Positions 23,154 through 37,940 of a stretch of DNA of 62,952 nt are shown piece after piece (position 1 is the first letter of the stretch; every line of letters begins with the position of its first letter). Both the position numbers and the translations under genes were made by a program. The DNA comes from Candidatus Hinthialibacter antarcticus (lineage in GTDB: Bacteria; Hinthialibacterota; Hinthialibacteria; Hinthialibacterales; Hinthialibacteraceae): positions 1 to 62,952 of the forward strand of contig JAVCCE010000035.1 of the NCBI GenBank assembly GCA_030765645.1, given 5' to 3'. The notes under the pieces were generated by a model. It saw only the letters and a program-made list of their open reading frames with translations. It did not search any database and was not told the DNA's origin.

Positions 23154-23280
23154 CAAAATGAGTTCACCAAATAGAAATAAAATTCGATTAAGAGTTCATT
23201 ACGATAGGCAAAGAATCAAAAATATTTTATGATAATTTATATTCTTACTATTAATCGAATGATGATTGGGGAGAAAGTTA

Positions 23281-23886
23281 ATGAAACAATCCGGCTTTAC
23301 TTTAATTGAGTTGTTAATCGTCGTAGCGATTATTGGCATCCTCGCGGCAATCGCTGTACCCAATTTTTTGAACGCGCAAATTCGCGCCAAAGTCGCCCGT
23401 TGCGTTTCAGACATGAAGACGCTTGAGACTGCATTGGAAATGTATCAAATGGATGCGGGCGACTATCCGCCTTATGGTGGTCAAACGCCGAATGTACGAC
23501 GCTGGTATGTATTGACCAGCCCCATCGCTTATATCTCTTCGATACCGATAGATCCGTTTTTTTCAGACGCATCCGCAGACGCCGTCCAGTGGGGTTCGGC
23601 CTATGACATTACTCTCGTGAACGCCGCCAAAGACAATTACAACTGGGATTGTCTATGGGGCGCCCATTATCGTATTAACGCCTGGGGGCCTGACGCCCGC
23701 AACGACTGGGGCGGATGCCGCCAGAGCCGTGATGGAAGACAAGGGACCTTCGGTTGTCCGAACGGAATCCCCAATTTTCAATATCAGGTGTCGAACGGCC
23801 TTGTCAGCGACGGCGACATTGTGTGGCTTGGGCCAAAGACGGGTCGAAGAACCAGCCCTGATTGCAAAATCCGAAACGCCATCTAA
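23281..23886 (+). CDS. Type II secretion/type IV pilin-like pseudopilin (GspG-like)
   Basis: A 201-residue prepilin with the class III leader MKQSG|FTLIELLIVVAIIGI, Glu at +5, and an N-terminal hydrophobic helix. The region ALEMYQMDAGDYPPYG is typical of GspG-like pseudopilins. The globular tail is Trp/Gly-rich with several cysteines. The start at 23281 follows GGGGAG at nine bases; an ATG at 23266 would give a longer leader. No secretion machinery genes are adjacent. A stand-alone pseudopilin such as this may act as a surface fibre or secreted-protein carrier; a terminator follows. Confidence 0.88.
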   Translation: MKQSGFTLIELLIVVAIIGILAAIAVPNFLNAQIRAKVARCVSDMKTLETALEMYQMDAGDYPPYGGQTPNVRRWYVLTSPIAYISSIPIDPFFSDASADAVQWGSAYDITLVNAAKDNYNWDCLWGAHYRINAWGPDARNDWGGCRQSRDGRQGTFGCPNGIPNFQYQVSNGLVSDGDIVWLGPKTGRRTSPDCKIRNAI

Positions 23887-26302: not shown

Positions 26303-27619
26303 TTAGTGAAGCATATATTGTTCGACTTCTGTTTTATCATTCGCCAGCGTGATTCCAAAGAAGCTAAGAATCGGGCTTGCGTGAGGAATGTTGTTCGGCA
26401 TTTGAAGACCGGTCAATGTACGGTTTTCATCCAAACGATATTGCTTGCGAATGAGGATCAAGCCGCCCGGAGGTGAAGCGCCGTCATAACGCACCAAGTC
26501 AGGCCACAAACGATCACCGAGTGACGTTTCTTCCACTTCACCTGTGAAGATGCCAATATTGCGAACGCGGGGTCCCCACGGATTGTTTTCTACGCCTTCT
26601 GCGTTGCCTGGCGCGGCGTCTTCAAACTTGTAATACAGTTCGGTGACATCGCCGTTAGCAAGAAACGGGGCCAGATCAAACGAACGCAGAGCCAAGTTCG
26701 GCTGATAACCGTCCAGGTTGCCTGCAGGGGCCGTATAAACCTGATCTTCTGTGGCAGAGTTATACAATTCAGTGAAGTTCACATTGTCTGTTGAAATTGA
26801 GAACTTGACGTTGCCCCACATTTCAACCCACAAGGTCGCTTCGGTCAGGCCTTCTAACGAGCCGGGGTAACCATCCATGTAATAAGTGAAATAGTTATCG
26901 ACGCCGTTGCAGTAGGTGTACTGGCCATAGTCATGATTGGCTTGTCCAACGCCTTCCCAGACATAAATCAAACCGTTGGGATCGCCTTCATAGGCTTTGT
27001 ACTGCTGGACGATTTCTTCTGCATCGCCGCTGACGGGCGCCACCCATACTGGCGGTTCCCAGAACCAGTCGTTCACAATGCCGATTTCCATCCAGTCGCC
27101 TTCACCGTCAGCGTAAATCGGCTTGAAGTTATTCAGTTCCGTACGCGGATCGACCAATTCACCGGTATCAGGGTCCTGTTCCGGGCCCCATTGGGTCTCG
27201 TTGCCCGGCCAATTGCCGCTGCCCGACATCATGGCGAAGAAGGCGTATTTATAATTGCCTTCGGGCACTGCGATGATATTTCCAACAGGATAATAGACAT
27301 CAAGTGCGCCGACCATTTCAGGCAACAAAAACTCAACTTCTCCGTCTGCCGTCAGGTTCACTTGTCCTGGAATGACGTCTTCAGGCAAAGTTGAAATTTG
27401 AATCCGCTGCGTTGTACCACTATCCAGCGTCCATGTCCCGCCAGATTCATGGCTGGTTGCAACGGCAGGCTCATCCGCAACATCATCATACCAACCATCA
27501 GCGTTTAAGTAATCCAATAAATCGACAGGCGTACAATCAAATGATTGCGCCTGTACTGAAGGCAACAGTAACAGCGCCGCTGCCCCAGCCAAGGTGAGTT
27601 TTCCAATCAATCTTTTCAT
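26303..27619 (-). CDS. Secreted protein of unknown family
   Basis: A 438-residue protein with a clear Sec signal (MKRLIGKLTLAGAAALLLLP, cleavage after SVQAQ) and a strong GGAGGAG ribosome site before the start, suggesting high expression. The mature part is acidic, rich in Trp, Tyr, Gly and Pro, and predicted to be all-beta (for example GNYKYAFFAMMSGSG and TLWVEMWGNVKFSISTDNVN). I do not recognise a domain. Only two cysteines (CTPVD, YCNGVD) are evident in the mature chain. It could be a surface or carbohydrate-binding protein; no function is claimed. No repeats or sorting tail are visible. Confidence 0.75.
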   Translation of the reverse strand: MKRLIGKLTLAGAAALLLLPSVQAQSFDCTPVDLLDYLNADGWYDDVADEPAVATSHESGGTWTLDSGTTQRIQISTLPEDVIPGQVNLTADGEVEFLLPEMVGALDVYYPVGNIIAVPEGNYKYAFFAMMSGSGNWPGNETQWGPEQDPDTGELVDPRTELNNFKPIYADGEGDWMEIGIVNDWFWEPPVWVAPVSGDAEEIVQQYKAYEGDPNGLIYVWEGVGQANHDYGQYTYCNGVDNYFTYYMDGYPGSLEGLTEATLWVEMWGNVKFSISTDNVNFTELYNSATEDQVYTAPAGNLDGYQPNLALRSFDLAPFLANGDVTELYYKFEDAAPGNAEGVENNPWGPRVRNIGIFTGEVEETSLGDRLWPDLVRYDGASPPGGLILIRKQYRLDENRTLTGLQMPNNIPHASPILSFFGITLANDKTEVEQYMLH

Positions 27620-30720: not shown

Positions 30721-30754
30721 ACGGGGCGGTCAATCGACCGCCCCGTGGTTTTAT
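30721..30754. terminator. Bidirectional terminator after the oxidase operon
   Basis: ACGGGGCGGT-CAATCG-ACCGCCCCGT followed by GGTTTTATT; a near-perfect 10-base stem lying between the oxidase stop and the stop of the convergent HEPN-like gene. Confidence 0.85.
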
Positions 30755-31119
30755 TGAAGGTTCTTGATTTTCTGGATTATACTTTTCCCCATGCTAATGA
30801 TTTCTTCCGTTTTTGAACGAAGTTCCGTCATATCAACATAGGGATTTGGAAATCTTGGATTGGGCTCGTAATCTGCCTGTTTACGCGCATCAGACATCCG
30901 TTTAATTCCATAATGGGTAGAAACTGATTTTATTTCGAACCAATCCAAAATCTTTTTGTGTATATTGGATGTACTATATTTAAATGATGGATCAATCTCA
31001 TTTATTTTATCAATCGCAATGTGGAATACAGCATAATATGCCCGACTGATAGATGTTCTCAGTTCTGCTTCATTAGAAGAATCCTTAACTAGCTGCTCGG
31101 AAAGAAAAATAAAGTTCAT
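30751..31119 (-). pseudogene. HEPN-domain-like protein with 5' end replaced by a MITE-like element
   Basis: The open frame is 122 residues. EAELRTSISRAYYAVFHIAI is typical of HEPN-domain proteins, which are small helical proteins common in toxin-antitoxin and defence settings. The frame begins inside the terminal inverted repeat at 31113: the ATG and the next codon (M-N) come from element sequence. Relatives usually start a few residues earlier with a different N terminus. It may still be translated as a slightly altered protein, so pseudogene is a moderate call. No nucleotidyltransferase partner is adjacent. Confidence 0.6.
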
Positions 31120-31374
31120 CCGGTAAGTGAGTACCTACCTTGATGGATGGCCATTTTTTGGATTCAGAAACGGGCTCCGGCATTTCAAAAATGGACAACC
31201 CAATCAGGTATGGGTGGAACTCTGGGAGCGCCTGTGCATAAGGGCTTGAAAGCCCGCACTGAAGCAAGCAGAGTTGTACCCATGCCTGATACAGCGAAAG
31301 ATCAAGAATTCACGAAAAAGCGTCAACAAAACGCAATTCAATTTGTGATAAAGTACCCAAATACCGGAAGAACC
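31113..31374 (+). mobile_element. MITE-like element with internal hairpin, copy 3
   Basis: Left end AGTTCATCCGGTAAGTGAGT; right end, on the opposite strand, GGTTCTTCCGGTATTTGGGT. The two ends match at about 15 of 20 positions. The hairpin core (GGTATGGGTGGAACTCTG to CAGAGTTGTACCCATGCC) lies near 31207-31286. One side is the HEPN-like gene and the other a cut response-regulator gene. No clean target duplication is seen here. Confidence 0.85.
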
Positions 31375-31632
31375 ATAAAAAATAGGAGAGAAAGAGAAGT
31401 CGCTATTCCACGTTTTTTCTAAAAGTTGTGCGCCATCGGCGCCATTCACGAACAAATCTAATATCAATAGATCGGGTTTCAGGCGTTGAATGTTTTCTTC
31501 GGCGTCTTCCACGGTTAATGCGCTGCCGCACAGCGAAAGATGAGTTAACGAAGAAATCGTTTTTTTCACGCCTTCGATGACAATCGGCTGGTCGTCACAG
31601 ATGAATATCCGTTTGGCGCCTAATTCTGACAT
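31375..31632 (-). pseudogene. Truncated response-regulator receiver domain
   Basis: The N-terminal 86 residues of a receiver domain: acidic pair D13-D14 in IFICDDQPIVIEG and phospho-acceptor D59 in DLLILDLFVNGADGAQLLEK. This layout is typical of NarL/LuxR-type regulators. The frame then runs directly into the MITE-like element at 31374, so the rest of the receiver domain and any DNA-binding output domain are missing. No histidine kinase gene is nearby. Remnant of a two-component gene. Confidence 0.75.
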
Positions 31633-31741: not shown

Positions 31742-33286
31742 TTAATACAAATGATAATTTTTCGCGTTAGAGGTTGAAATATACTCCAATTGGTGGACTA
31801 TATTATGACTAACTTTATCAATGAAGTAAACTTCTGGGTATCCATCACGGTCAATGTCAGCAATTGCACTTGCATTATCTTGAAGATATGGCATCGAAAG
31901 TTTGCTAAGCAGTGTTAAGTCAGAGTTGTATATACAAACACATTGTTGACCAAATTCGATGATTTCTAATATTACGTCAGGGCTGCCGTTGCCATCCATG
32001 TCGGAAATGCCAGTCATTTCTACTCTAGCATTATCATCATCGGATACGTTTACAGAACCCTGAAGCCCATCAAACAAGTCATAGCGTTGAAGCACAGGCT
32101 CTTCTTGATATATCGCAAACAACTGCTCATCGCCATCTGATATGACTGCATTCATAAACGATTTTCCTTCTTCGGCATGGTGCTCTGCGACAATTTCTCC
32201 GCTCTCAAAATTATAAACGTGAATGGCCCCTGTTGAGGTCGAATCCCAAATTCTGATGTAATCGTCCCATGAGACGCCATATAACGTTCCGTTTTTGCTC
32301 TTCGTAATCATCCCGCGGCCTGACATTAACTCACCGCGTTTGTTGTACCACTCAAGGGTCAGTGGAGGTTGATTTGGGTCGCTGTCATCAAACTTGAGAC
32401 AAAAGTCATACGCTTCATTATCTTTCACCGTCATGCCGGCGAAGGTCTCACTGACGTTTATATAGTTTCCGTTCTCGTCCAATATCGGCACACCGTCTAC
32501 TTTTATCCAATTGTCTGGCGTTAGAGGAACAAAGAAAAAGCGAGTACTCCCATCCTGCTGACGAACAAATGTTGGAAATGGTGGAGGCGTCGCTGTATGA
32601 AACTGGGCCTGTAATTCTTCTGTCTCAATATCCCAGATATTCAATGAACGGGGTTTATAGTCTGAATGCCCAGCCGATGATCGCGAGATGAATTTCCATT
32701 TCCCTGATGGGCTTTGAAATGCGAAAAGTCCATTTTCGGCGCCGTTCCAGATTTCGTCGCCGTCAACATCTTGAATCGGCAAGCCCTCAAAATGGGTGAG
32801 AACGCTTTGTTTGGCAGGTGAAACAATTTGAAAAACGGGCCGCTGGTTCGCTCGGTTACCTATTGAACAAAAAACTTCCATACCTTCAATGTCGTCATAA
32901 TTGAATAGTTGAGTGATAAGGAACACCTCATCGCCTGTTCCAGAGATTTCACTTGGCTGAACAAGAGGGACGCTCAGTGTTTCATTCATCATTGGGTCAA
33001 AAACAACTAGAGATAATCGCTCTGGGTTAACGCCAATAATTTGTTGCGTCTCTGAACCTAAAACGTCCCCTACCAACAACTCATCATCAAAAGAGATATT
33101 AAGTTCAAAAGACGTAACAGAAATCTGTTCTGAAATAGACGTTTGAATGGGGCTGTCGAAATGAAACGTCCCCAGTTCATTTCCCCACCAATACCCCCAA
33201 TCTTGAGCGAAGACGGAGCTGGTTTGGATTAAACAAACGGTTGAAAATAGCAGTAGGGGACAATAAAAACGCTGGTAGAGTAACAT
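31742..33286 (-). CDS. Secreted FG-GAP/VCBS-type beta-propeller-like protein
   Basis: A 514-residue exported protein; signal peptide ends near SSVFAQ. It carries calcium-loop-like repeats of the integrin-alpha/FG-GAP type, for example DVDGDEIWNG, DMDGNGSPDV and DIDRDGYPEV, spread over the chain. The family forms propellers used in adhesion or ligand sensing outside the cell. It is divergent from a second FG-GAP protein (33455), with 168 bases between them, and the pair lies next to an ECF sigma/FecR module. Codon use and base composition are more AT-rich than in the flanking genes. Confidence 0.78.
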   Translation of the reverse strand: MLLYQRFYCPLLLFSTVCLIQTSSVFAQDWGYWWGNELGTFHFDSPIQTSISEQISVTSFELNISFDDELLVGDVLGSETQQIIGVNPERLSLVVFDPMMNETLSVPLVQPSEISGTGDEVFLITQLFNYDDIEGMEVFCSIGNRANQRPVFQIVSPAKQSVLTHFEGLPIQDVDGDEIWNGAENGLFAFQSPSGKWKFISRSSAGHSDYKPRSLNIWDIETEELQAQFHTATPPPFPTFVRQQDGSTRFFFVPLTPDNWIKVDGVPILDENGNYINVSETFAGMTVKDNEAYDFCLKFDDSDPNQPPLTLEWYNKRGELMSGRGMITKSKNGTLYGVSWDDYIRIWDSTSTGAIHVYNFESGEIVAEHHAEEGKSFMNAVISDGDEQLFAIYQEEPVLQRYDLFDGLQGSVNVSDDDNARVEMTGISDMDGNGSPDVILEIIEFGQQCVCIYNSDLTLLSKLSMPYLQDNASAIADIDRDGYPEVYFIDKVSHNIVHQLEYISTSNAKNYHLY

Positions 33287-33454
33287 GATGAAAATTCTCC
33301 CTTGCTAAATTGTAATTCTAAATCAAGATTTGCGGTTGACTATAACAATAAACTAAGTGATTTGAAGTGCGACCGCGCTTTATGACCGAAAAAATGAGTC
33401 ATGAACGTCATTTAATGGACGTAAGTTATAGTATGCTTTATCCTGATTGATATA

Positions 33455-34933
33455 ATGAAAAGTATAACTTTTCGAATCGTTTTTTTTTGTCGCTTGTGTC
33501 GAGAGATTAATTTGATTTGTCGATTTTCCGCCATCGTCTTTTTTATTATTGCCCAACCCGTTTTTGCGCAATGGGCGCATCAATACGCCGACATTCAATC
33601 AACAAATTTTATTACATTACCAGAAACGGCCAGCCGCGCAATCAACATCCCATTAATCGACAGTTTTGAAACGCAGCATTTCTATTCATCCTTGCTCAGC
33701 GGCGATGTGGATGGCGATCATGTTAACGAGTTGGTCGCGTTATCAAATGATCAAAAAAATTTAGCCATCGTCGATTTTTTTGAACGCAAAAAGATTGTCG
33801 TCCCATTTCAAGATGATATTACTGAAATCAACCTCTTATTCTTGACCGATTTTGATGAAGACGGCGCACAGGATATCGTATTCCAATCGTCAAAAGAACC
33901 GGATATTCATTTCATTATTTATTCACCCAAACAAGAGACAACGCTATTCGAGTATAATTACCGCGCTCCACAAATCGGCGCAGTCTCTTCAACGTCTCGT
34001 TTAACCACATGTACTCCAATTGCCTTCATTGACGCTAACTTTGATCGTCAAAAAGAAATTATCACTCTGAAATCATTCACTGATGATAGAACGATACTGA
34101 CGATGATTTCTAGCCGGACTACAGAAGAGCAAATACTTCTAGAGACAAACCGAATTGACGACTCATCTCTCGTGATGACGAGTGTTGGCGGTTTTGAAGA
34201 AACCTACATCATTTTCTCTACTTTAATAAACGGTGTCACAAACCTTAACGCGTATATAATTGAAAAAAACTCTCAAGAAGCGCTTTTGCTTTGGAGCAAG
34301 CCTCTCAGGCCGAATGATTCGGTTTCTAGAATTGCGGCTTCAAACGGAGACCTGGAAGAACCTGTGGTTTATGTCGGAATTAATTCAGACGATCCTGACC
34401 AGGAGCGCTTTTTTAGTAAAATAAACCTGTTAACCGGTGAAGAAGAACAAACCTTCAGCATTGATCGATGGGACTGTATTGACCTGGCAGCAGGAGATTT
34501 CGACGGGAATGGCCTCGCTGAAGCCACATTGCTTACAACGGATTCTAACTTGCGACGACTTGATTTTGAGATGAATTCAAGTCGTATTTTTACTATCAAT
34601 GATACTCATCATTACATTGGTGGAATTGAGTTGCTAAACAGTAATCGGGGGATTGAGCATTGTATTGTGCAGAACAACCTCAACGGCTTTGAATTGGTGA
34701 TGCTCAATTATGATTTTAGTCCCATTTTTCTAAATTCCAGCGTTTTGATTCGAGGCAACAAAATTAGCCGGGGAATTTTGGGAGATTTTGACGGGAACCA
34801 TCTTGGAGAGATTGTTATTTCTTCTCAAAGTGAGAATGGAAGCCGCATAAACCGCGTCTACTTTGCAGACCCGTTGCTTCCTCCATTTCCACTTGGCCCC
34901 ATCACCACGATTGAAGGATGGGAGATATACTAA
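33455..34933 (+). CDS. Secreted FG-GAP/VCBS-type protein upstream of an ECF sigma gene
   Basis: A 492-residue exported protein with a late signal peptide (AIVFFIIAQPVFAQW, about 29-43). DxDxDG-type repeats include GDVDGDHVNELVAL, DFDEDGAQDIVF, DFDGNGLAEATLL and DFDGNHLGEIVI. It probably folds as a propeller and is a paralogue of the divergent neighbour. It ends 62 bases before the sigma factor gene on the same strand, so they may be co-transcribed. A role as extracellular sensor for the sigma/anti-sigma pair is inference. Confidence 0.78.
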   Translation: MKSITFRIVFFCRLCREINLICRFSAIVFFIIAQPVFAQWAHQYADIQSTNFITLPETASRAINIPLIDSFETQHFYSSLLSGDVDGDHVNELVALSNDQKNLAIVDFFERKKIVVPFQDDITEINLLFLTDFDEDGAQDIVFQSSKEPDIHFIIYSPKQETTLFEYNYRAPQIGAVSSTSRLTTCTPIAFIDANFDRQKEIITLKSFTDDRTILTMISSRTTEEQILLETNRIDDSSLVMTSVGGFEETYIIFSTLINGVTNLNAYIIEKNSQEALLLWSKPLRPNDSVSRIAASNGDLEEPVVYVGINSDDPDQERFFSKINLLTGEEEQTFSIDRWDCIDLAAGDFDGNGLAEATLLTTDSNLRRLDFEMNSSRIFTINDTHHYIGGIELLNSNRGIEHCIVQNNLNGFELVMLNYDFSPIFLNSSVLIRGNKISRGILGDFDGNHLGEIVISSQSENGSRINRVYFADPLLPPFPLGPITTIEGWEIY

Positions 34934-34995
34934 AAATGACCGAATTTTAAAACTGACGCGTCTTTTTATTAGATGTGCATTTTAAGTTAAAATCC

Positions 34996-35523
34996 ATGGA
35001 TTATCATTATTCAACCAACGGCTCTGAAACGGAGTTGAGGCGAATCATACGCGAGTTTCAGGCTCCGTTAACGCGGTTTGTTCACTTTTTAGTTAAAAAT
35101 ACCGACGATATCGATGATATCGTACATGGTACGTTTGTGAAACTCTGGAAGGAAACAGCCGTAAAGAAAAAAAATATTGACAATATTAAAGCGTTTTTAT
35201 ATCGAGTCGCGCGCAATCACGCTATAGACGTGCTGCGAAAAGACCGGGTTAGAAAGATATTTTCATCCCAGGAATCATCCGCCACCAATTCATATACTCC
35301 TCTTGACGCTCTATATTCATCTGAAACCGAGTCGACTCTAGCGAACGCAATGAACCAACTATCATACAAAGAGCGCGAGATTCTTGCCTTAATTTATGTT
35401 GAAAATATGAAGATGCATGAAGCGGCAAAAGTATTAAATATTGGCGAAGAAGCAGTCAGCAGCAGGCTTCGACGGGCAAGAACCAGTTTGAAATCAAAAC
35501 TTCCTGAATCGTTTCAGATGTAG
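34996..35523 (+). CDS. ECF-type RNA polymerase sigma factor
   Basis: About 175 residues with sigma region 2 (LTRFVHFLVKNTDDIDDIVH then GTFVKLWKE, and the RVARNHAIDVLRKDR region 2.4) and region 4 (LSYKEREILALIYVENMKMH then EAAKVLNIGEEAVSSRLRRA). The start is uncertain: ATG at 34996 or GTG at 34975; neither has a strong ribosome site. The FecR-like gene follows after 12 bases. ECF sigma factors direct transcription of a small regulon on an external signal. The conserved elements look intact. Confidence 0.9.
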   Translation: MDYHYSTNGSETELRRIIREFQAPLTRFVHFLVKNTDDIDDIVHGTFVKLWKETAVKKKNIDNIKAFLYRVARNHAIDVLRKDRVRKIFSSQESSATNSYTPLDALYSSETESTLANAMNQLSYKEREILALIYVENMKMHEAAKVLNIGEEAVSSRLRRARTSLKSKLPESFQM

Positions 35524-35535
35524 TGGAAAACTATT

Positions 35536-36267
35536 ATGTCAAAACCATCAAATGACTTAAACGACGCACTCAAAGAGACCCTGAGTCGCACCAATTTGTA
35601 CAAAAGCAGCAATCCCTCGTTAGAAAACCGGGTCATTGAATCCATTCGTCAATACCAGGTTCAAAGACGACGTGTTCGAAAGACGTTGAGCCTTTGTACA
35701 TGCGTCATTCTCATCGCTGTTATCACATGGACCTATGCAATATTTAACTCCGGAAAACCGATCACCATCATTGATGGCCCGGGTTTAGTTCTTCTTAATT
35801 CTAAACCGGTTCAGATTGACGCCGAACTATATTCTATGAGCGTAGGTTCAAAACTAAATACTCAGACGAACCAGGTTCTGGTTCGTCTAAGCGACGACGA
35901 ACAGATTATCTTAAACCGCGAAACAACGATCTCGTTAATTGAAAAGCATACCGTTCAGATAGACATGGGCCAGATTCGCTATCGAAATAAATCATCTAAC
36001 CATCAAACGGTTTTTATGGTTCCCAATGGTTCAATTACTCCACTGGGCACAGAATTCGATCTGCTGGTGTCTCCACAACACATTGAATTGATATTGCTCG
36101 AAGGTGAAGCGGAAATTCAAATTGGTTCTCAACGCGATCTGTTACAGTCAGGGCAAAAAATTCAAATTAAGGACGACTCAAGTCAGGTTGAGTTTATTAA
36201 TGCGCAGACGCCTGAATGGTGGAACATCAATAATGACAAACCCTGGACTGACTATTTAAAAGAATGA
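35536..36267 (+). CDS. FecR-like membrane anti-sigma/sigma-regulator
   Basis: A 243-residue protein with a cytoplasmic N-terminal 53 residues, one membrane helix (LCTCVILIAVITWTYAIF, about 55-72) and a periplasmic FecR-type domain (VLVRLSDDEQIILNRET then VPNGSITPLGTEFDLLV and LEGEAEIQIG). FecR proteins transmit a periplasmic signal to a partner ECF sigma. The N-terminal part lacks an obvious zinc anti-sigma motif. It is coupled to the sigma gene (12-base gap). No TonB receptor with a signalling domain is present in the window, so the input would have to be something else. Confidence 0.85.
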   Translation: MSKPSNDLNDALKETLSRTNLYKSSNPSLENRVIESIRQYQVQRRRVRKTLSLCTCVILIAVITWTYAIFNSGKPITIIDGPGLVLLNSKPVQIDAELYSMSVGSKLNTQTNQVLVRLSDDEQIILNRETTISLIEKHTVQIDMGQIRYRNKSSNHQTVFMVPNGSITPLGTEFDLLVSPQHIELILLEGEAEIQIGSQRDLLQSGQKIQIKDDSSQVEFINAQTPEWWNINNDKPWTDYLKE

Positions 36268-36351
36268 ATTGACTTTCTATTGACTCTATCCATAAAATAT
36301 TCCACAATCCATCATATACTTCTATAATGATTTTGTATTTTGGATAGTCGG

Positions 36352-36957
36352 ATGGAGCCTGCCTCAAAAGCAACATTAGAAAGCCATCAAGTATTGCGAG
36401 GGTTTTCGTTATTGGAATTATTGGTCGTAACTGCGATTTTAATGATTCTTGGTTCGATATCTGCATTTAATTTTCAAAACGCTCTCGTTCAGACAAAAGT
36501 TTCAGCCGTCTATACAAAGTCACAACAAATTTCAACCGAATACTTTCTATTTCAAGCCGAGACCAGTGTGTCACCGGTATTACCGCAAGGCGTCATCCTC
36601 AATGGACATGACATTTACGTTAAAAATCAAACCAATGATTTGGCGAATATGTTGCGGTTTCGATTTGTCGAGCGTTTACCTTTAAATAGCCTGATTGACC
36701 CTTTTTTCTCACGAGAGGCTGATTGCCGTCACTTTCTTGGCATCGAAGCGCAAAAATTGAATTCATTGTTTCCATTTGAAGAAGCCCAAACAAATTGTTT
36801 AGTTATTGTCAGCAAGGGGCCGGATGGAGAGATTGCGCAAATTTCATCAATATTTGACTATGATGGAATGATTTATGACCCGACGAATGGGGTCACCAGT
36901 AACGGTGATATTTTTCGATTGGCGCCCCACAATATCAATCCTACCTTCATTTATTAA
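36352..36957 (+). CDS. Prepilin-like secreted protein
   Basis: About 201 residues. The N-terminal leader contains the type IV prepilin motif RG|FSLLELLVVTAILMILGSI with Glu at +5. It lies about 18 residues from the chosen ATG (36352), a longer leader than usual; a TTG at 36340 is possible. The body (FVERLPLNSLIDPFFS and GPDGEIAQISSIFDYDG) resembles the pseudopilins at the other locus. It is 84 bases downstream of the FecR-like gene on the same strand and may belong to the sigma regulon. Confidence 0.78.
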   Translation: MEPASKATLESHQVLRGFSLLELLVVTAILMILGSISAFNFQNALVQTKVSAVYTKSQQISTEYFLFQAETSVSPVLPQGVILNGHDIYVKNQTNDLANMLRFRFVERLPLNSLIDPFFSREADCRHFLGIEAQKLNSLFPFEEAQTNCLVIVSKGPDGEIAQISSIFDYDGMIYDPTNGVTSNGDIFRLAPHNINPTFIY

Positions 36958-37192: not shown

Positions 37193-37940
37193 AACCAAGC
37201 CTCGCTTCTCCTTCAGCATTACCTCAAGCAATTGAAACTGCCCGCTTTCCTGCGCGACTATCAAGCGATTGGCGGAACAATGCCGGGCGGACCGTTCGGA
37301 TTATCCCATATATCTGCCTCGCCTGGCCGAACGGGAGACCATCGAACGAGAGCAACGAGCGGCGGAGCGCCGGATCAAAGCCGCTCGATTTCCGGTGATC
37401 AAAACCTTGGACGCGTTTGATTTCAACGCTCAGCCTTCGATCAATGAATCCCTGGTTCGAGAATTGATCCCGGGAGACTATATCGATAACCGGGAAAATG
37501 TTCTTCTGGTGGGCAACCCGGGAACCGGCAAGACTCATATCGCGTGCGCGTTGGGTTTTTCCGCTTGTCAGCAGGGCCGCAAGGTCTGTTTCTTCACCGT
37601 GACGAGTTTGGCGACTCAACTCCTGGAGCGCCGGGAAGAAAAATCGCTGGAGAAATTCCACAAACAATTGGAGCGTTTCGATCTCTTGATTCTGGATGAA
37701 TTGGGATACGTCCCATTCTCGAAAACCGGAGCCGAACTCTTGTTTGATGTGGCGAGCCGGGCCTATGAACGAACCAGTCTGATGGTGACCACCAACCTTC
37801 CTTTCGAAGAATGGCCCGAAGTCATGGGAAGCGAACGTCTCACGGGCGCTCTTCTCGACCGCCTGACCCACCGCGTTCATATTCTGGAGGCGAATGGGGA
37901 GAGTTTTCGGTTGCAGGAATCCAAAAAACGATTCAAGTAG
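37190..37940 (+). pseudogene. Frameshifted istB (IS21-family helper ATPase)
   Basis: IstB-type ATPase that assists IS21 transposition. Walker A GNPGTGKTHIACAL and Walker B LLILDELGYVPFS are intact, followed by SLMVTTNLPFEEWPEV and the C-terminal GSERLTGALLDRLTHRVHIL. The first 27 residues (MNQASLLLQHYLKQLKLPAF to RDYQA) are in another frame. One extra base just after CAAGCG (about 37268) shifts the frame, since LAEQCRADRSDYP resumes immediately. With istA also truncated, the element is dead. The total length would otherwise be normal (about 250). Confidence 0.85.

Follow-up and report, generated by a model that had tools for sequence, protein, structure and literature searches.

A sigma-FecR gene block with a pseudopilin and FG-GAP neighbours in Candidatus Hinthialibacter antarcticus: possible copy of a recurring module

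A block of five genes on contig JAVCCE010000035.1 of Candidatus Hinthialibacter antarcticus (assembly GCA_030765645.1; positions 1 to 62,952, the whole stretch analysed, hereafter the window) encodes an extracytoplasmic function (ECF) sigma factor, a FecR-domain anti-sigma factor, a prepilin-like protein and two secreted proteins, FgA and FgB. We give about an even chance to the following reading: the block is a diverged and probably acquired version of a module found repeatedly in the phylum, in which an ECF sigma factor and its FecR anti-sigma factor go together with a pseudopilin and with one or two exported proteins, mostly propeller-like, that end in a short C-terminal tag; the module would control the export of certain surface proteins that carry the tag. 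Most of what is known about FecR-type regulators comes from TonB-receptor signalling. If the reading is true, a phylum-wide pairing of FecR with pseudopilins and tagged exported proteins would widen the range of what this switch senses and controls and would offer a starting point for the study of protein export in a large lineage without cultured members, and the C-terminal tag would predict the tagged exported proteins of each genome.

Gene content of the block

The block comprises the following features, in window coordinates.

31742..33286, minus strand: FgA, secreted protein with the signal peptide MLLYQRFYCPLLLFSTVCLIQTSSVFA followed by Q (by eye), weak FG-GAP similarity and the C-terminus ...AKNYHLY
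33455..34933, plus strand: FgB, secreted FG-GAP protein with an N-terminal signal sequence (by eye) and the C-terminus ...TIEGWEIY
34975..35523, plus strand: ECF sigma factor with a GTG start and a later in-frame ATG as alternative start
35536..36267, plus strand: FecR-domain anti-sigma factor (Pfam PF04773)
36268..36351, plus strand: intergenic region with two sigma70-like promoter matches
36352..36957, plus strand: prepilin-like (GspG-like pseudopilin) gene with RGFSLLELLVV and an N_methyl match

The initial annotation had placed five genes at these positions and strands; the open reading frames were confirmed, and the sigma factor, FecR, the prepilin and FgB all yield Pfam matches. The sigma factor matches Pfam sigma regions 2 (1.5e-10) and 4 (1.9e-11) as well as TIGR02937 (4e-25, above cut-off). 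FecR is laid out as a short cytoplasmic N-terminus, one membrane helix at approximately residues 53-72 (by eye) and a periplasmic FecR domain at residues 107-192, which matches PF04773 at 1.5e-06, above the cut-off. No Pfam match beyond PF04773, either to FecR_N or to C-terminal accessory domains, was obtained for this divergent protein, for which the absence of a hidden Markov model match is weak evidence. The prepilin contains the N_methyl motif (5e-05, above the Pfam cut-off) and probably starts at ATG 36352 rather than at TTG 36340. It shares the N-methylation motif with the major pseudopilins (GspG) of type II secretion and type IV pilus systems, and its C-terminal GPDG...GDI stretch resembles the GspG calcium site. 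It differs from GspG in scoring far below the cut-off of the equivalog model TIGR01710 (20 bits compared with 88.85) and in having dozens of paralogues per genome.

Both secreted proteins had been described as FG-GAP proteins, which holds for FgB (FG-GAP_3 at 2.9e-08 and FG-GAP at 2.5e-06, both above the Pfam cut-off) and is less firm for FgA, the FG-GAP_3 match of which lies below the cut-off (0.0019; 19.2 bits compared with 26.9). For the propeller nature of FgA, the evidence is this match together with faint similarity to FgB. Single-sequence AlphaFold models of the two proteins were too poor for judging the propeller fold (predicted local distance difference test scores of 38-40).

Recurrence of the architecture in related genomes

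The comparison set consisted of 14 genomes of the class, the own genome (G000, a 5.15 Mb draft that is 96.5% complete) and 13 others. For the FecR-domain genes identified in the class, the surrounding DNA was retrieved, genes were re-called, and sigma, FecR and prepilin genes were marked by profiles. Searches of the 13 other genomes gave no close orthologue for any of the window genes, and a search of a genome collection gave no close relative of the window sigma. The best class matches of the window sigma and FecR are 19-30% identical, and FgA and FgB give only short repeat-level matches in the class genomes. Nonetheless, the order FG-GAP, sigma, FecR, prepilin occurs in three relatives, G001, G002 and G005 (loci L086, L089 and L102), and the order sigma, FecR, prepilin, FG-GAP in a fourth, G012 (L097). 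The initial annotation had staked its proposal on these neighbours being kept together in relatives, and in these four genomes they are kept together as an architecture, although not as orthologous genes.

The 14 genomes contain 35 sigma-FecR pairs, in 17 of which a prepilin gene is an immediate neighbour (16 recognized by motif and L097 by profile), compared with approximately 1.7 expected. Each of the six same-family genomes, and likewise G008, has 77-137 prepilins, approximately 2% of genes by estimate. At an assumed prepilin rate of 2.5% the adjacency has P ~2e-12, uncorrected for the relatedness of the loci; the base rates behind such figures are estimated, and related loci cannot be counted as independent. 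Chance adjacency to a common gene type was rejected on the count over the 35 pairs. The prepilin-bearing pairs occupy at least four separate supported lineages of the sigma tree and were grouped as follows.

Type Ia: L081, L086, L089, L090, L093, L096, L102; prepilin downstream
Type Ib-1: L082, L087, L088, L109, L116; prepilin divergent, propeller-like gene after FecR
Type Ib-2: L080, L085; propeller-like gene after FecR
Other prepilin-bearing pairs: L097, L107 and the window

The 15 linked prepilins of types Ia and Ib and of L097 form one clade (support 99/99) apart from the sampled general pool, whereas 20 other prepilins of the same genome lie outside it and none of these was seen beside a sigma gene. 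The excess of adjoining prepilins, the separate sigma lineages and the dedicated prepilin clade together indicate that the association is old and specific.

The third partner is often an exported propeller-like protein, which is of the FG-GAP type in part of Ia and NHL-like in Ib. The FG-GAP proteins encoded directly before sigma in L086, L089 and L102 are 40-52% identical to one another, and in L097 the FG-GAP gene follows the prepilin and is itself followed by a GH38 mannosidase gene. The genes after FecR in Ib-1 and Ib-2 encode a related set of proteins, some with NHL, SGL or PQQ-like matches. The type Ia copy of the own genome (L081) has a sulfatase gene and a gene for a 620-residue tagged protein in place of the propeller.

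Two further features were observed at these loci. The type Ia FecR proteins end in a conserved periplasmic tail, Y[YF]PSLAxP (7/7 proteins). Another type of sigma-FecR pair, at L103, L104, L114, L115, L117, L119, L124 and L128, is followed by a very large gene (~680-1290 aa), and L107 has a similarly placed 929-aa gene with repeated carboxypeptidase-regulatory-like domains.

A candidate C-terminal sorting tag

The end of FgB fits the pattern V/I-x-x-W-x-L/I/V-Y-COOH and that of FgA is a variant only. The consensus V-x-x-W-x-L-Y-COOH, found on FgB and on most third partners, is a candidate for a new, undescribed C-terminal sorting tag; the initial annotation had overlooked it. The motif W-x-[LIVM]-[YFHR] is located exactly at the C-terminus in 17 of the 596 proteins of the fetched loci, compared with 0-2 proteins at other distances. 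In the 26 strict cases, V (24) or I (2) occupies position -7, W position -4, L, V, M or I position -2 and Y position -1. After removal of the last 15 residues, 37 tagged proteins fall into 21 sequence families, including FG-GAP, LamG, subtilase and NHL-like proteins, so that the tag is a short linear motif rather than a shared domain.

A search with the corresponding DNA pattern located 319 sites in the six same-family genomes compared with 44 for the reversed control (33-74 and 3-11 per genome, respectively), 76 compared with 20 in the sister family, and 78 compared with 32 in the remaining genomes of the class. The 46 genomes of other phyla show no general excess over the control; the exceptions seen, G060 and G023, have one identical site listed many times, as a repeated element would. 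All six sites of G011 encode the variant W-R-[LV]-Y. In the own genome, 13 of the 14 listed sites that were fetched are the C-termini of long open reading frames, nearly all with an apparent signal peptide, and genomes of its family have roughly 30-70 tagged proteins each. No NCBIfam or Pfam model matched the tag on 9-10 tagged proteins, and a literature search on a V-x-x-W-x-L-Y C-terminal tag, limited to the papers available, found no paper. Like the PEP-CTERM, GlyGly-CTERM and type IX C-terminal domain signals, the tag is a short C-terminal sequence conserved across many exported proteins of one lineage that are otherwise unrelated. It differs from these signals in that it spans only ~7-9 residues and ends in W-x-L-Y-COOH, and the hydrophobic helix and basic tail are not seen in the tagged C-termini.

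Tagged genes account for 11 of the 66 genes adjoining sigma-FecR pairs, where approximately one is expected. By our own count, 12 of the 17 prepilin-bearing pairs (L097 included) have a tagged gene no more than two genes away, compared with only 1 of the 18 other pairs. Genomes with more tags tend to have more prepilins (Spearman 0.81), a correlation confounded by relatedness.

Elsewhere in the window, positions 26303-27619 encode an exported 438-aa protein that ends in ...TEVEQYMLH, possibly a further variant of the tag. At L216, also in the own genome, a tagged FG-GAP protein is encoded divergently from a prepilin, and no sigma-FecR pair was recognized within the 8 kb retrieved.

FecR without a TonB partner

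In the FecA-FecR-FecI systems (E. coli fec, Pseudomonas pup and fpv), as in the block, an ECF sigma factor and a FecR membrane regulator with a periplasmic FecR domain are encoded as a pair, and signalling requires an STN signalling domain on the receptor (PMC9249621). The block differs from these systems in that its partners are a pseudopilin and exported propeller-type proteins, and in that its locus is without a TonB receptor: no receptor open reading frame was found between 26 and 42 kb in window coordinates. Two TonB plug domains were identified in the own genome, on other contigs (C11 and C64). These two receptors could in principle serve the block as unlinked partners in classical cell-surface signalling. 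However, both consist of plug and barrel only and lack the STN domain, which makes such signalling unlikely, and a receptor missed at the given genome completeness is possible but improbable. We assign this explanation hardly any weight. The initial annotation had rightly described the block as using other neighbours instead of a TonB receptor, but this is ordinary in the class, where FecR domains occur in 14/14 genomes and TonB plug domains in 7/14. Given these counts and the missing STN domain, a FecR that lacks a TonB partner is usual in the class and no peculiarity of the locus.

Some FecR proteins of relatives (L086, L089, L090, L093 and L102) resemble class I (ASDI) membrane anti-sigma factors (PMC7406223) in carrying an N-terminal H-x3-C-x2-C motif (by eye). 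The window FecR differs in lacking this motif, and its periplasmic part is a FecR domain. A literature search for FecR together with FG-GAP, pseudopilin or DUF1559, limited to the papers available, found no paper.

Promoters and regulation

In type Ib-1, a conserved promoter-like box TGAAGCTTT-N15-GTCT precedes the sigma gene in all five loci (L082, L087, L088, L109 and L116) at fixed spacing. The box also precedes a few other genes, several of them for exported proteins. Five of six genomes contain 2-4 copies of it each, compared with 0-1 for the control. In this it resembles an autoregulated ECF promoter that serves a small regulon. It overlaps the annotated start of the L109 sigma gene, and that start is therefore probably too early.

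In the window, the gaps of 41 bp between FgB and sigma and of 12 bp between sigma and FecR suggest one transcript. The prepilin follows FecR after ~84 bp and may have its own promoter, given that two of the sigma70-like matches fall in this gap; such matches number 28 in the region searched compared with 16.9 expected, a weak excess. A TTGACT-type element common to the FgA/FgB intergenic region and the region upstream of the prepilin (17/24 positions) was reached by 2 of 40 shuffles and is not relied on.

Composition and placement of the window copy

The G+C content at third codon positions (GC3) is 0.38-0.43 in all five genes of the block, FgA included, and 0.54-0.68 in the tested flanking genes. 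Owing to this common low GC3 the block looks like a single unit that includes FgA, and by composition it was probably acquired as one unit. The following features flank it.

31204-31632, minus strand: response-regulator receiver domain, apparently truncated, beside the block
37269-37940: IS21-type istB, with related copies elsewhere in the genome

A short stretch upstream of istB is repeated at three places on contig C59 (83-93% identity), and no istA was seen adjoining it. Flanking by istB and a truncated response regulator suits acquisition or rearrangement.

The membership of the block in the module rests on composition, order, GC3 and tag, not on phylogeny: the prepilin is directly beside the sigma-FecR pair, and the exported partner FgB carries the tag. 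In the best trees the window FecR groups with Ib-1, unsupported, and placement with Ia or Ib-2 is not rejected, while the window prepilin lies outside the sigma-linked clade, although its inclusion is not rejected (p-AU 0.18, approximately unbiased test).

Several observations weigh against the proposed reading. The sigma, FecR and prepilin of the window sit on long branches, with identities to the others of no more than 27%, 19% and 31%, respectively; they belong to no supported module clade and have no supported sister, and topology tests neither join them to the module clades nor exclude them (p-AU 0.18-0.45). The type Ia tail Y[YF]PSLAxP is missing from the window FecR, and the Ib-1 box from the window block. 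Within the module itself, the divergent prepilin of Ib-1 has no sigma box, and the FG-GAP proteins of L086, L089 and L102 are without the tag. Moreover, most tagged genes do not adjoin a prepilin, so that the link between tag and pseudopilin is a statistical one.

Proposed working and alternative explanations

In the module as we picture it, FecR would hold the sigma factor at the inner membrane until a periplasmic or envelope signal, presumably not passed by a TonB receptor, releases it. Once free, the sigma factor would direct transcription of the operon that encodes it, the propeller gene included. The propeller protein would cross the inner membrane via its Sec signal; the C-terminal tag might then help to bring it to the surface or the outside through a GspG-like pseudopilus, of which the linked prepilin would supply a part. 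In a broader form of this proposal, an undescribed export route would use the free C-terminal tag to bring dozens of exported proteins of unrelated kinds to a machine of the pseudopilus type, and several sets of cargo and pseudopilin, that of the window among them, would each answer to a separate ECF sigma/FecR pair and not to a TonB receptor. This broader form is tentative and on balance doubtful.

The propeller could instead be the input, a surface or periplasmic FG-GAP protein that binds a ligand or a surface, contacts the periplasmic FecR domain and replaces FecA. The family of the propeller changes with the sigma lineage (FG-GAP in Ia, NHL-like in Ib). Its gene stands before sigma-FecR in some Ia loci, and in Ib it comes after FecR and is transcribed in the same direction, as expected for a partner. 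However, propellers of different modules come from unrelated families, which suits an output, as does the sharing of the tag between most Ib partners and many exported proteins that have no sigma-FecR neighbour. The presence on FgB of a tag common to many unrelated exported proteins likewise points to an exported product rather than a sensor. The propeller as output is favoured on these sequence features, and its role as input appears unlikely.

A second possibility is a secretion-coupled feedback switch, in which FecR monitors the prepilin as a measure of the pseudopilin or secretion state and the sigma factor adjusts cargo expression. A dedicated prepilin clade does follow sigma-FecR pairs across genomes, and at several type Ia loci the FecR gene overlaps the prepilin gene or almost abuts it. 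The window prepilin, though, is not placed in that clade and its separation from FecR leaves room for a promoter of its own; for the window, this switch is improbable. Finally, an unrelated sigma-FecR pair may have landed beside common gene types, given the 77 prepilin and 98 FG-GAP domain matches of the own genome, the want of close orthologues of the window genes and the rearrangement of the region indicated by its flanks. Such an origin is quite improbable in view of the same order in three relatives and the same composition in a fourth, and of the GC3 in common, the tight gaps and the tag match at the end of FgB, and the output reading of the recurring module is preferred.

Two other genes of the window were noted. 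A small protein encoded at 30751-31119 has a weak HEPN match, and a second prepilin gene with a T2SSG match, located at 23266-23886, belongs to the general prepilin pool.

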